A DNA stretch of 64,000 nt from Bathymodiolus brooksi (taxonomy: Eukaryota > Mollusca > Bivalvia > Mytilida > Modiolidae), in assembly GCA_963680875.1 (NCBI GenBank), contig OY804579.1, forward strand, positions 81,085,095-81,149,094. Direction: 5' to 3'. Position 1 is the stretch's first letter, and each line of letters starts with the position of its first letter. Position numbers and translations under genes: made by a program. Positions 10,736 through 48,600 of the stretch are shown here, one piece after another. Under the pieces are notes generated by a model. That model was not told the origin of the DNA. It saw only the letters and a list, made by a program, of their open reading frames with translations, and did no database searches.

Positions 10736-11167
10736 CTGGAGGTAAATACGAATCGAACATCGTTTTTATCCGGAAATCGTAACGGACATCACAGACGGAA
10801 CTAAGTGATAATAAACACAAATTTCTGGCATAGACTAAATACACTAACCTGGATTTTTAAAGAGGTAGTGCACGGAAAATAATAGTCCTCTGCTCCACTA
10901 CACACACAACATTATTGAGTAAGAGAAGAGTATGTGGATGGTTCTGAATCAGGTTAGTGTGTTCGATTGGAACGACATTTTATTTTTTTCCAATGTGTTA
11001 TCACAATAGCTACCCAGCCCTACGTGTTGTTCTAGTACACACAGACATTACTATTACCTCATCAAGAAGTAACGTTATCATCGCGAAATAACTGACAAAC
11101 TGCTCACATGGAGTTAAACAGCAATAACTGTTTTTTTAATGTTGCTTAATCGTTAGTTTTTCAAGTG

Positions 11168-11280: not shown

Positions 11281-11689
11281 ACAAATAGGAGATACGTATT
11301 GGAAATAATGGTAAAACTCGCTTAGAAAGTGAACTCTGCAAACAATCACAACGGATTCTTGGAATAACTACAGCAGTGATCATAACAAAAGATCTGACAA
11401 AACTGAGAAGGTAGTAAGATTGTGTACCCCGGAAGGACTTAGTATCTCATGCTCCTTGCATGGGATCTATTGTTAGTACTGACAACACGTGCAATATGTT
11501 ATGCGAAAATCGTGAAGTGTATATCAATTTGTAATTAAAGGCATGAAATATAAAGAATGCTTGACTGATTGACTGGTGCTTCACGCCAACTTTAGAAGTA
11601 ATTTAGCTATATCATAGCGTAAGCAAATTGCATAAATTAAAATCTTAAAAAATGACATTGTGCCATAATATAGATCAGGTCGGTATTAA

Positions 11690-12357: not shown

Positions 12358-12501
12358 CTGATATAAGAACATAAAAAAACATTATATCACTTTACAAACG
12401 TAGATATCTAAGTTTGTGAGCGTGACGTGTTTCTGGAATAACCTCCATAATGTACGCCCAAAGTCAAAAGATAGTTCCTAAATAATATAATTTATTAAAA
12501 T

Positions 12502-13083
12502 AAGGTATCGTGGTGTTATCAGTTCTCGATAGTAATCTATTCTCGATAGTTTCGCGCGTGTGCAATTTGACAGATTTGACAGCACATGTCTTCTGTTCGC
12601 TCGGATTTTACCTACAGAACACCACCTTGCTTGATCAAAGCAAAAATAAAAATCACCATGTTACGTATTAAGGTATGTAAATAAACATAGTTTCCTTCTA
12701 CCCCAAGTTTACAACCTTTTTCTTATTCCCAAAACTAGACCAACTTACCCATTTACCCTCAGAAAATTCCGGTTATCAATGTAAGCAAAGGGTGAACTGA
12801 AATGAAGGTCAAGTACACGCAAGTCATGTATAACCGGAAATAATGTAAACAAAATGCCCACCGTACATACAAATGCACACTTATCGAGAACAGATGACGT
12901 AGTAAACAAAATGTCAGAAATTAGCACACATGAAAATCATCGATCTGAAGGGAAAGATTATTGAGGCATACATAGAGATAGTATGTAAATGAAGAAACAA
13001 TTATAGGTTTGTATTGTGTATACGGGAAAATGGACAAACAAGTTTGCTATGTTATCGAGAACCGATAACACCAGGATATCCTT
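12502..13083. mobile_element. MITE-like element with ~33-bp terminal inverted repeats
   Basis: Left end AAGGTATCGTGGTGTTATCA, continuing GTTCTCGATAG. Right end, read inverted, AAGGATATCCTGGTGTTATC, continuing GGTTCTCGATAA. Apart from a small indel the arms match over about 33 bases. The interior (~515 bp) has no gene and contains further TTATCGAGAAC/TCTCGATAG motifs near 12537-12550 and 12880-12892, like subterminal repeats. Target duplication is not evident. Confidence 0.6.
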
Positions 13084-13119
13084 AGCCAATTTTGTCTCTT
13101 TGGTTTTGTTGGCTTAGCT

Positions 13120-13250
13120 GACTCCAAAGACTTTTAAATTATTTGTCTTTCGAACCTTTTGACTATGACCGTACCTGATGAAGATAATTCCAGAAACGCG
13201 CCGTGCGGATTAAATCAGATATCTATGTTTTTAAATTATTTAATTCAATT
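13120..13250 (+). repeat. Dispersed 'CCTGATGAAG...AATTCCAGAAACGCG' repeat
   Basis: The block 'cttttgactatgaccgtacc', 'gatgaagataattccagaaa', 'cgcgccgtgcg', 'atatctatg' recurs as 'attttgactacgaacat...cctggggaaagttatttcag' at 33745-33835 and 40620-40710 and as a tandem form at 57145-57430. It is a dispersed repeat of unknown type. Confidence 0.5.
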
Positions 13251-13479
13251 ACGTTGTTATTGTTTACTTTGCTATCTTTGATCATCACAATTAATCGATT
13301 CGACAGACTCATCTGTGTTTGACTATATGTGTGATATACGCTCTAATATTTGGTACTTATTATTATATATTTCCGATTGATATTGTTCGAGCACACCTAA
13401 ATAAGGTACATTGGGGAATGAGAATCTGTTACATTCGATCTACAATGTTGATTAATTATTGCAGAAAGGGAGTGATATA

Positions 13480-13601: not shown

Positions 13602-13690
13602 TATAGACGGTTCTTAATAAGATGCTCATAAATATTCATATATCTCGATAGCGAGGTTAAGCTAGGCAAAATTTGTAAACAACATGGCAG
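13602..13690 (+). repeat. Left terminal inverted repeat with leader and start codon
   Basis: The outer 13 bases match the right end perfectly. Inner matches are GCGAGGTTAAGCTAGG and CAACATGGCAGC. The AACATGGC context around the ATG resembles an initiator-type core promoter motif, so the repeat may act as promoter as well as transposase-binding end (inference). Confidence 0.6.
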
Positions 13691-15245
13691 CCTCCAGTGG
13701 AGAGAATATTTCAACAAGAGATTTGTCGAAACTACCAGATATTTCTTTCACCTTTGTGGATGATTTCATCAAAGGACATGGTACCAGCTCTGGTAAAGAA
13801 CAAATGGCTGAAGGGTTTAACTACTACAGCGAGGATTACGTGCATTCTATATCAGGTAAGTTCTATATATTTATTTGTCGATGTCTCCATCTACGTTTCT
13901 AATGAAAAGGGCGTCTATGTATCTTTTTATTTGCATTTTTTTGTCTACAAATAGGAATTTATCTCAAAATTCTACATATTTTTGTTGTTTGAAAAAATTT
14001 AATTGTAATGTCGTGTTGCTTCGTAATTAATAAAAGCTGATTTAATGTAAACAAAGTAATGATTGGGCGATCATGCATTGTCAGATTTTTTTTATGCGTG
14101 ACTTGCAGCTTTGTAGCTAGAGTATCTATTACGAACATTGAAATAATAAATACTGATGTCGGTAAATTATACTGTATGGTAATTTTCATGAATGACAGAG
14201 AAGTAATGTGGGTGCATTTGATTCTTTTGCAGTGTATTCAGATGAGGGTGGGTGCTTGGTTAAAGGCAAATGTTTCAGGTCTCAAAGAAAACATGAGTCC
14301 CCGCATGAAATGAAGGTAAGCATACGACAAGCGATTCAAATGATATACATTGTTACAGTTATATTTGTACACATATGCAAAGGATATTCCTGTCATAAAC
14401 AGGCTCATTGACACCAAAAAGGGGGTCAGTGCAGAACTTGTGTAGATGTGTTGAATCTATGCACTGACTTATAAGCTTATTTTATTAACGAAGCAAACTT
14501 TAACGTATATTTATGATGAAAAAAATGTAGAACAGGTGTTATGATTATTTTATAATTCGTAAGTTCAGGTAAAATGAAGTTCCAATTTCCAGTTAAATGT
14601 TTTTATGCTGATAAATATATAAGCTCTTTAATGTAACAATAAATCTTTATGCACAAAACAAAACGCAAGTTCCTAAGTATAAACTTTACAACAACAACAA
14701 ACAAAAAACAACATTCTTTATGAACACTATCATGACTATTTTTGAAACTAAGTTATTATAAATTTTGCATTTTCAGATTTTCATCAACAAGGAAAAAGAT
14801 GAGCATGCGTTTTGTACGTGTACAATTGGACAGAGTGGTTATTGTGGGCATATTACTGCCCCTTTGTACCAACTTGCTCATAAAAAAATGACATTGGAAA
14901 TTATTCCAATAGATGTCGCTAAAACATCTTTACCACAAACTTGGCATATACCAAGGGGGCCAAAATTACATGGAGACAAGACGGACAACATTGTAGTACA
15001 AGGTTACGACAGAGAAAAATCCGCAGTGAGCCACACAAGGGATCAAATCCACATTATACAACCCTATTTCTGGAGAGGAATCTTTAAACATTTGCAGTTT
15101 AGTTGATCAGATGAAAAATATGGATATTTTGTTCAGCACTGTTGCAATGGAGAATGATACCGACTTGGTGCAAGCACAGTTTGGAAAGTTTCAAAAAGGA
15201 TGTGTGTTGAGCTACCAAAACAAACAAGGTCTAGTGACTATATTT
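13684..15245 (+). pseudogene. SWIM zinc-finger protein gene of the transposon, 3'-truncated
   Basis: Three exons with clean splice sites: 13684-13855 (ATCAG|GTAAGT), 14233-14315 (TTTTGCAG and GAAG|GTAAGC) and 14777 onward (CATTTTCAG). The frames join exactly (phase 1, then 0). Start: MAASSGENISTRDLSKLPDI. Exon 2 gives EGGCLVKGKCFRSQRKHESP. Exon 3 gives FCTCTIGQSGYCGH, a SWIM finger of form CxCx6-7CxH that would bind DNA or protein, then LPQTWHIPRG. Near 15045 the frame shifts; the next frame continues as GIKSTLYNPISGEESLN and FGKFQKGCVLSYQ, then another shift leads to LSEKQMQQLISLKVT at about 15325-15360. In relatives I remember from mollusc and cnidarian genomes, this order is followed by a YqaJ-type nuclease; here the sequence runs into the THAP gene instead. 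The likely role is in transposition, as inference. Confidence 0.7.
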
Positions 15246-15430
15246 TGAATTTAATGGAAAATAACGCTTTTCCAGATTTGCCATAAAAAAATGCTATGGT
15301 TTGCAATGTGAATACAGTTCTCAGTGAAAAACAGATGCAGCAATTGATTTCACTGAAAGTAACACAGTTTTCAGCTCCTTGTGAAATGTGGATTCCATCA
15401 TTCATCATCTGTTCATCCTCAGGCATGTTC

Positions 15431-16229
15431 TCATTTCGTACTAGTGTGTAATAGTTGTCTAGCTGTAGGTAATATTCTCCCCAATGAGTTTGTTTTCCAT
15501 TCAAAAATTGATGGGAAAACATCAGCTTTCAAAGGTTTCCTGTCAAGTGTCAAACAGAAATCCTCCTTGAAATGCCTTGAACATACTACAGTATTTCCAC
15601 CAATCTGTTAAAAAAGAATTCTTAAATTATTTATGAACTAAGGTGAAATAAGTCAGTTTTTTGTTAGTACACTGAGTGATTGTTGTTTAATGCCTATTCA
15701 TTAATTTTTCAGCAGATACCCGACTGGAGATCAAACCCAATATCTACCACACTCGGGGCGCAGCATGCGGTTTTTTGTTTGTACAATCATAACCACAGGG
15801 TGCTGTCCATGCAGCTAGCTGCACGTTGTGAAATTCATCAACGATAATTCCCAGATGTTTATTATAATTATAAACATATGATACTTTCTTTGAAGTGCAT
15901 CTTACGAAAACCCTTATTTTACTTTTGTGCTGAATTAAATTGAAAAACAAAATGTAAATAATCATGAAAATATGAATTTGGCACTTATTCTGTCGAGATT
16001 TTGTAACTTGACATAAACACGTGTTTCTTAAAATCAATTTGTTTACCTTGAAAAACGGTCCCTCATCCCGTCTAATTGCAATTATCCATTGTTTTCTTAA
16101 CGCAGATGTCTTCTCTGATGGTATATGATGGAAGCTTAATTCTTTATGGATTCTGGCATTTCCATTACACTGTGGAACACAACAATATTCATCTCGAGAT
16201 TTTACGTTAGTTGCAGCTTCAGCAGCCAT
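15431..16229 (-). CDS. THAP-domain protein gene of the transposon
   Basis: Two exons on the minus strand: 16229-16047 (61 codons, donor CAAG|GTAAAC) and 15604-15431 (acceptor TTTTTTAACAG, ending TGA), both phase 0, giving 118 residues. The product is one THAP finger, a sequence-specific DNA-binding C2CH module: CCVPQC near residue 16-21, FHHIP at 33-37, KQWI at 46-49, then VVCSRHF (the C-x2-H pair) from exon 2 and ADVFPSIF, the family's AVP-like closing motif. Little follows the domain, and out-of-frame sequence continues beyond the stop, so the original protein may have been longer. THAP fingers occur in transposases such as P elements, where they bind the transposon ends; binding of the element's own repeats is a reasonable inference here. 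Confidence 0.75.
15690..15768 (-). repeat. SINE-B fragment inside the THAP gene intron
   Basis: 'cccgactggagatcaaaccc', 'atctaccacactcggg' matches the end of the SINE-B at 16475-16510 and reads on the minus strand as a pol III B-box (GGGTTTGATCTCC). It lies between the two THAP exons, so the intron carries a SINE remnant. Confidence 0.5.
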
Positions 16230-16318
16230 GTTGATGATACATTACCTAGCTTAGCCTCGTTTTCGAGGCAATGACCCCAGGTCAATGAATACATGAATAA
16301 CTTTTAGAACCGTCTATA
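16228..16318 (-). repeat. Right terminal inverted repeat with leader and start codon
   Basis: The counterpart of 13602-13690: CTATAGACGGTTCTAAAAG at the edge, then ACGAGGCTAAGCTAGG and CAACATGGCTGC at the THAP start codon. It is slightly longer than the left copy because of an inserted GACCTGGGGTCATTG segment, itself a palindrome-like tract. Confidence 0.6.
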
Positions 16319-16535
16319 GCGCTAGCTCAATGAAACAGCAGTCAGCGGGTAGACATGTCGCTCCACTCGGTTGTATTATCCTGAATCCAACCAGTCTCTG
16401 CTCTTACTCGTCAATGCTGAACGCTTAGCGGAGAATCAGTAGATGCCAATTGCATAAGTCGTCCCCGACTGGGATTGAAACCCACGATCTACCACACACG
16501 AGACGAGCACGCTAACGATAACATTACCAATATGG
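16319..16535 (+). repeat. SINE family B, right part
   Basis: 'gtcagcgggtagacatgtcg', 'ctccactcgg', 'ccaaccagtctctgctctt', 'aatgctgaacgcttagcgg', then 'gggattgaaacccacgatct'. The last segment reads on the minus strand like a tRNA-type B box (GATCGTGGGTTTCAATCCC). Matches 48460-48600. Confidence 0.65.
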
Positions 16536-37484: not shown

Positions 37485-37715
37485 ATTGAGTGAGTCAGCG
37501 ATTGTTGTATAACGTCAAATGGGCAATGTTTCAGCTATTACATAGCGAGAACAAGTTAAATTCGATGATATGATATTGATGTCCTCTTTGTACTAGACCA
37601 ATGGACTTAGTTGGGGGATATGATGTTTTCAACAATAGTTCAGTTTTATCGTGACGGTCAGTGTTATTGGTGGAGGAAACCGGAGTACCCGGAGGAAACC
37701 ACTCCATCCAGATTT
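37485..37715 (+). repeat. SINE-B fragment joined to reversed SINE-A fragment
   Basis: SINE-B words ('gcgattgttgtataacgtc', 'atgtcctctttgtactagac') run to about 37615, then reversed SINE-A words ('tcaacaatagttcagtttta', 'gacggtcagtgttattggtg', 'gtacccggaggaaaccac') to 37708. Repeated at 44025-44250. Confidence 0.6.
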
Positions 37716-43187: not shown

Positions 43188-44250
43188 CAGTTTGTTAGTG
43201 ACTTACGGCAGGTCGATTGTTTTTACCAGATACTCCGGTTTTCACCACCAATAAAACTGACCACCACGATATAGCTGAAATATTGTTGAACACCACAAAC
43301 TAGAGTAAAACATTTAGCATGAACAAATAAGATGAAACGATTCTTTAGAAATCAATAACTTAATAGTACACAGAAGAAAATGGCGTTGTAAAAAATCTTT
43401 TAATGCAAACTGCAAGCTCGCGCATAACGTATGGTTTGAAGCATATAGACCTGATACACTTGAGCGGTTGGTATATTACTATCAACGTATGGATTGTTTG
43501 AACAGTTGTTTCTAGAAGGGCTCATGTTTTCTGTATAGTGGTGTCCAACACATTTTGTGTTTTGTTTTTGTTTTGGTTTTCTTCGTCTTGTCTACTCTAT
43601 GCTGCCAGTTTCTCTGGATAGTCCATTTTTGATTGCCCTTTCGGTATTCTCTAAAGTTCATTGATATAGAGTATGGTAGAAGGGTAACCGTTGCTGTCAA
43701 TTTCGATAGAAATGTCAGAAAATGAGGCAGATAAAGCTGTTTCTGTTGTTTCTTTTATCGTATGTTCTTTGAGAAATATTACTGGAAACTTTTAGTAATA
43801 AATTGACAGAATATACATAAATGTGAGATTAAAGGCTTTAGAATCTGTCATTTTTTGTCGTTGATGAGGGTGTTTATTAACTCTGTCGTATGAGTAGGAA
43901 TAGAGGAACACATCATCAAGGAGAAGGGCACAGCTTGTTCCATGGAGATGCCGGTGAGTTGGTGAAAAATGTTGAAGCAGATATATGATTAATTATAAGT
44001 TATTTTGGTATTGCAAGCTCATTGAGTGAGTCAGCGATTGTTGTATAACGTCAAATGGGGAATGTTTCAGCTATTACATAGCGAGAACAAGTTAAATTCG
44101 ATGATATGATAGTGATGTCCTCTTTGTACTAGACCAATGGACTTAGTTGGGGGTATGATGTTTTCAACAATAGTTCAGTTTTATCGTGACGGTCAGTTTT
44201 ATTGGTGGAGGAAACCGGAGTACCCGGAGGAAACCACTCCATCCAGATTT
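43188..44250 (+). repeat. Duplicated SINE and R2 pieces of copy 2
   Basis: Counterparts of 36655-37715: SINE-A fragment (43193-43308), R2 tail (43510-43670), SINE-B fragment (44025-44150) and reversed SINE-A fragment (44155-44250). Small differences include 'gtcagttttattggtgg' in place of 'gtcagtgttattggtgg'. Confidence 0.65.
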
Positions 44251-47556: not shown

Positions 47557-48329
47557 CTGAAATGACACAATGATATTAAGAGATATTATACTTTAAGTTA
47601 ATATATATGCTATTGATATCATTTCGTTGTACATAAAGGATTTTTTTTTAATTTGAATAACCTTTATAAGCTCCACCCACCTATTCATGACAACATAAGG
47701 CAAATGGTCTGTAAGTCAGGTCCATAGCTAGCAAGAGACGTCAATGCCTGAAACTGACTCCCGCTGAGACCGACCTTTGCCGATCCTGAAAAGATTAACA
47801 CCTGTTCCGGTCGAGGTTTTCTGATTCATATATCGATTAAAAGGACAACGGACTAAGCTATATCAAACTTACATAATTTGCTTCATTGTATATCTTGTAC
47901 CAAACGTTAGTATGTGGTCATAATAGCTTTTAGCACTTATTCTGGATAAGTCGAATTCTCGGCTATTTCGAAGTAAAACCATCATACCTTCGAAATCGAC
48001 TGAACGAGGTTCGGCCACGGTGGGTTCGGCTGTTTTATATTTTACGACGATTCGTTGTGATCGTGATAGGTTAGCAGCAACGATTTGGCTTGAGTTATTA
48101 ATATAGCGATGTTCCTGTGATACTTATATTGACATTTCGTAACAAAATTACATTATTATACGAATAGCAAATGTTAGATATTAAATTTTTGAATTTGATA
48201 AAAGACCTTATATCAGTTTCGTCTCTCGAATTTGTTAAAAGTCAATATATGATATCCGATTTTATAGATTATTTACCACATATCTACTATAATTTCTAAC
48301 ATTTCTTTAGTCAAATGCAATTCATCATT

Positions 48330-48600
48330 AACGCCAGTTCAGCAATATTTCAACTGCATGTATATCATGGCGAGAACAAGTTAATTATCATTGAGATGAT
48401 GATGAGGTCCGCTTTGTACTAGACCAACACGCTGAGTTGGATTTTCATAGTCCGCGGGTAAACACGTCGCTCCACTCGGACACATTATTCTGATTCTGAG
48501 CCAACCAGTCAGTGCTCTGTCTCCTTAATGCTGCGTGCTTAGCGGAGAAGAAACAAATACCAATTTATAGTATTTGGTTTGACCCGACCAGGACGTCATC
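48330..48600 (+). repeat. SINE family B, unsplit copy
   Basis: 'cagcaatatttcaactgcat', 'gatgatgatgaggtccgctt', 'tgtactagaccaacacgctg', 'gtccgcgggtaaacacgtcg', 'ctccactcggacacattat', 'aatgctgcgtgcttagcgga', then 'gacccgaccaggacgtcat'. It spans the point where the transposon at 13602-16318 interrupts its sister. An ACAA-rich tract follows at 48625-48660. Confidence 0.65.

Follow-up and report, generated by a model that had tools for sequence, protein, structure and literature searches.

Truncated THAP and SWIM-YqaJ genes in Bathymodiolus brooksi mark a probable non-autonomous ISL2EU transposon copy

Results

Inverted ends and insertion context

The element examined in the present study spans positions 13602 to 16318 (2,717 bp) of the window, the whole 64-kb stretch of Bathymodiolus brooksi DNA that was analysed, and holds the remains of two facing genes, a SWIM-YqaJ gene on the forward strand and a THAP gene on the reverse strand. 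It is bordered by a left terminal inverted repeat at 13602–13614 (forward strand) and a right one at 16306–16318 (reverse strand), each the exact inverse of the other over 13 bp, as stated in the original prediction; with adjoining bases added, the terminal arms comprise 16 nt at 94%. The exact 13-bp motif is present in the 64 kb only at the two element ends, and with two mismatches allowed it has four occurrences compared with a mean of 1.44 in shuffles. A weaker inverted similarity of ~90 bp, proposed to reach both start codons, is likewise borne out, as the first 119 bases of the two ends give a local alignment score of 65, whereas none of 500 single-base shuffles exceeded 34. The similarity includes a left subterminal inverted block at 13644–13691 (forward strand), containing the start codon of the SWIM gene at 13684, and a right block at 16222–16267 (reverse strand), containing that of the THAP gene at 16229; the two blocks are 77% identical (E 0.003). 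Directly to the left of the element lies a degenerate long inverted repeat (12363–13260, with arms at 12363–12556 and 13023–13260), the best ungapped pieces of which measure 80 nt (75%) and 26 nt (92%). This repeat is perhaps an old MITE-like element.

The flanks read TTTATA-GACGG on the left and CCGTC-TATAGC on the right, which fits a target duplication of TA, AT or TATA. Joined to each other, they align with an uninterrupted repeat at 48328–48565 of the same window (68% over 260 columns, E 3e-30), which partly supports the proposal that a SINE-B was split at the insertion point; that repeat, however, lacks ~20 bp adjoining the right end of the element, and the exact empty site is therefore not fixed. 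Judged from the sequence, the element was likely inserted into a SINE-like repeat. Copies of the left-flank repeat were found on the forward strand at 37488–37614, 44024–44150 and 48328–48565, and weakly at 11568–11643, as well as on the reverse strand at 10893–11125.

Two truncated facing genes

The SWIM-YqaJ gene comprises exon 1 (13684–13855), which is 65% identical to residues 1–57 of the Mytilus protein P0002, exon 2 (14233–14315), which agrees with animal relatives, and a third exon running from 14777 up to a deletion zone at ~15370, all on the forward strand. Exon 3 encodes a SWIM-like finger of the form CxCx7CxH, for which the Pfam SWIM model gives an E-value of 0.078 (under the cut-off), and a linker; the YqaJ core is missing. 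Compared with its relatives, the window gene shifts frame twice, near 15015 and near 15220, and is interrupted by two stops. Matches to P0002 and P0003 stop at 15364–15367, and those to P0007 and P0012 reach 15376. In P0002 the YqaJ domain begins at residue 300, and the window matches stop just upstream of it.

On the reverse strand, exon 1 of the THAP gene (16047–16229) is 67% identical to the Mytilus protein P0036 and matches the Pfam THAP model at an E-value of 3.3e-7, over the cut-off. It is followed by an intron (15605–16046) and by exon 2 (15434–15604), which encodes the end of the THAP domain and the start of a linker. The domain is accordingly divided between the exons at 16229–16047 and 15604–~15434, with exon 2 covering Pfam THAP positions 50–87 (E 1.5e-4) at 22.9 bits, just below the cut-off of 23.9. 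The predicted exon join, FFK-IGG, is the same in P0036, an unbroken relative, and the proposed splice sites of both genes match those of animal relatives, which upholds the earlier description of two spliced genes facing each other. A stop in the THAP frame lies directly after exon 2 (15431–15433). Matches to the transposase stop at 15434, corresponding to residue 119 of P0036, in which the HTH domain starts at residue 254 and the DDE domain at residue 334.

Beyond what had been claimed for the locus, both genes are truncated. The two stumps meet at 15370–15434, where the sequence coding for YqaJ and for HTH-DDE is absent, and the window has no counterpart for ~200 residues of the SWIM-YqaJ protein and 384 of the transposase. 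One relative of the THAP gene, P0043, represents a cluster of 26 members (86% identical in the search listing, from short contigs) and partly reads into the THAP intron and its SINE-like fragment (91% over 160 residues). The intron and the repeat are thus common to at least one other copy, which, from this resemblance, would belong to the source species or to one near it. The SINE-like fragment in the intron (near 15719–15768) and another in the right flank (16464–16512) are 78% alike.

SWIM-gene relatives

A search among 5.77 billion proteins gave 32 matches to the SWIM gene. YqaJ (PF09588) is listed in 19 of them, including all 19 of at least 370 aa, and is not listed in the remaining 13; the best YqaJ-bearing relative is P0002 from Mytilus (63% across the whole scored region). 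An organism is named for 18 matches, 15 of which are bivalve, representing the genera Mytilus, Saccostrea, Ostrea, Pinctada, Crassostrea, Magallana, Argopecten, Pecten and Tegillarca, and the remainder belong to Haliotis, Pomacea and Exaiptasia. A CxCx6-9CxH motif is present in 25 of the 32 matches; P0007, one of the seven without it, begins past that region and represents a cluster of 20 members (86% identical in the search listing) from short contigs. This cluster and that of P0043 attest further copies of the genes. Pfam SWIM is under the cut-off in P0002, P0003 and P0015 and unlisted for P0014 and P0022, which makes "SWIM-like" a fair term for the finger. For none of these five proteins did the Pfam scan list a Myb/SANT family. 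P0015, a SWIM-YqaJ relative from Pecten maximus, also has an N-terminal Tc5-type HTH domain (Pfam E 9.7e-5, just over the cut-off), perhaps due to a gene-model fusion. When viral contigs were compared with the YqaJ alignment A2, three loci matched in the YqaJ region, none of them matching any of the six THAP/transposase proteins compared, and these are probably ordinary viral YqaJ proteins.

THAP-gene relatives and linkage of the two families

DDE_Tnp_4 (PF13359) is listed in 12 of 17 matches to the THAP gene, including every match of at least 400 aa, with the Mytilus proteins P0035 and P0036 (56%) being the best relatives that bear it. The remaining five (P0034, P0043, P0044, P0045 and P0046) are at most 267 aa long and contain THAP only; among them is the top match by E-value, P0034 (218 aa). 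A Pfam rescan of P0036, P0042, P0039 and P0049 placed THAP, HTH_Tnp_4 and DDE_Tnp_4 over the cut-off in all four. The three DDE motifs are present in 11 of the 12 relatives with a listed DDE_4 domain, the exception being P0048, a 407-aa protein on a 1,511-bp contig, which lacks two of them. Residues D335, D410 and E457 of P0036 are presumed to be catalytic. Scans of viral contigs with P0036 and with the transposase alignment A1, and of genome contigs with A1, returned no relative of the transposase.

Members of the two families were also compared by contig. The Saccostrea proteins P0003 and P0042 are each on a contig of size 114,096, with LOC numbers (134239948 and 134239942) that are six apart, and the Haliotis rufescens proteins P0022 and P0045 are each on a contig of size 13,835,785. 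These equal sizes suggest that each pair shares one contig. The Pinctada proteins P0005 and P0040 have a common chromosome-sized contig, with gene numbers far apart, and so do not show pairing.

Discussion

Placement in ISL2EU

ISL2EU, a group of the PHIS/Harbinger-like superfamily, is described in the available part of PMC4482050 as combining a THAP-HTH-DDE transposase gene and a second, YqaJ-bearing gene with AT duplications within A-AT-T, ends of 6–259 bp that usually start with GG, a mean length of ~4,840 bp in autonomous elements, and a distribution restricted to animals. The portion of PMC9179366 available to us reports this pair of genes too and names HTH or THAP as the binding domains. 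Relatives of the THAP stump have the THAP-HTH-DDE transposase, of which the window copy keeps the THAP part only, and relatives of the SWIM stump have the YqaJ second gene, which in the window ends just before YqaJ. Since the gene set of the relatives is the published ISL2EU set, the element can be placed in a named group, and we consider it, with a probability of about nine in ten, a decayed, internally deleted, non-autonomous ISL2EU transposon copy; this placement rests on close relatives of the first ~120 residues, the copy itself being without a DDE core, and was made against the published description of the group. The original prediction was right to see here a DNA transposon encoding both a THAP and a SWIM-YqaJ protein, as the domains of the relatives bear out. 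The element class that it could not place in a named superfamily is, however, neither new nor unplaceable.

Besides the gene set of its relatives, the element resembles ISL2EU, as far as the group is characterised in those sections, in an end length within 6–259 bp, AT-rich target bases and an animal host. It differs in that the window copy is without both catalytic cores, in that its ends start with AG, TA or GA, according to the duplication chosen, rather than with the usual GG, and in that the context would be T-AT-A, if the duplication is AT, compared with the published A-AT-T. A further difference is the SWIM-like finger that the window family has ahead of YqaJ. The words SWIM, orientation, opposite, convergent and intron are absent from the main text of PMC4482050; the accessible sections of PMC7826175 do not link YqaJ and SWIM to each other, and in those of PMC12460157, an ISL2EU paper, "SWIM" occurs within "swimming". 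PIF/Harbinger elements also combine a related DDE transposase with a second gene, but according to the available part of PMC4482050 this gene codes for a Myb/SANT protein and the target duplicated is TWA, whereas the window element shows neither a Myb/SANT gene, the relatives of its second gene being YqaJ proteins, nor TWA.

Alternative readings

The locus could instead belong to a separate, unnamed class that dispenses with a DDE core and relies on the joint action of a THAP-only and a SWIM protein, with the window copy complete. Two facing genes within good inverted ends would suit such a class, as would the short THAP-only matches (P0034 and P0043–P0046) and the 13 SWIM-gene matches without YqaJ. 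However, all 19 SWIM-gene matches of at least 370 aa have YqaJ and all 12 THAP-gene matches of at least 400 aa have DDE_4, and the window itself contains a SWIM gene with frame changes and stops and two stumps that run together. We regard this reading as mostly refuted already and very unlikely. Host genes, or a host-domesticated pair, situated between chance inverted repeats would be consistent with the annotation of both families as uncharacterised genes in bivalve genomes, but terminal repeats that are exact over 13 bp and border the genes, an inverted similarity well over that of shuffles, the frame changes and stops, and a repeat apparently interrupted around the element make this exceedingly improbable.

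Among the superfamilies that bear THAP domains, P elements have the domain at the N-terminus, with a different transposase core and one gene, and generate duplications of 8 bp, while Kolobok elements duplicate TTAA. The N-terminal THAP domain of the window protein is a likeness to P elements and could point to a P-element-like or Kolobok-like transposon. A P-type core was not found after THAP, however, its place being taken by HTH_Tnp_4 and DDE_Tnp_4 in the four rescanned full-length relatives, and no P-element family was recorded in the Pfam scan of the relatives. Neither TTAA nor an 8-bp duplication is present beside the ends, and a YqaJ partner is found in the family of the window element and is not known from P elements. 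Such a partner is described for ISL2EU in the available text of PMC4482050, and we consider either affiliation extremely unlikely.

Proposed history and implications

Under the ISL2EU placement, the complete parent would have had two genes, presumably facing each other, one for a THAP-HTH-DDE_4 transposase and the other for an exonuclease-like protein of the SWIM-YqaJ type. The THAP and HTH domains of the transposase would likely bind the element ends, and the enzyme would likely cut and paste the element with duplication of a short AT-rich target, while the YqaJ protein may assist as a nuclease acting on DNA ends. Deletion, perhaps in a single event, accounts for the short length of the window copy. 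Both the DDE and the YqaJ core are missing, and because of this loss the element could move only with proteins supplied from elsewhere; it is a non-autonomous relic. Since both catalytic domains are absent, the window copy cannot show the cooperation of THAP and SWIM-YqaJ proteins in transposition that had been envisaged for it.

What the additional genes do is, according to the sections of PMC4482050 available to us, not yet known. We tentatively suggest, as a possibility that we consider rather doubtful, that the ISL2EU helper is a zinc-finger nuclease, given the conserved CxCx7CxH before YqaJ, and that one end-binding protein could both set the expression of the two genes, each of which starts in the common inverted subterminal block, and mark the ends for cutting. 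The role of two-way promoter that the original prediction gave to the repeat is likewise hypothetical.

The find is an ordinary, deleted member of a named superfamily. It makes a small addition to what is known of ISL2EU, namely the CxCx7CxH finger preceding the YqaJ domain, and its remaining interest lies also in the block shared by the start regions of the two genes. An element that had seemed unclassifiable now has its place in a named superfamily, SWIM and THAP gene fragments of such type in animals can be the remains of transposons, and the SWIM-like finger provides a small lead on the role of the ISL2EU YqaJ protein.
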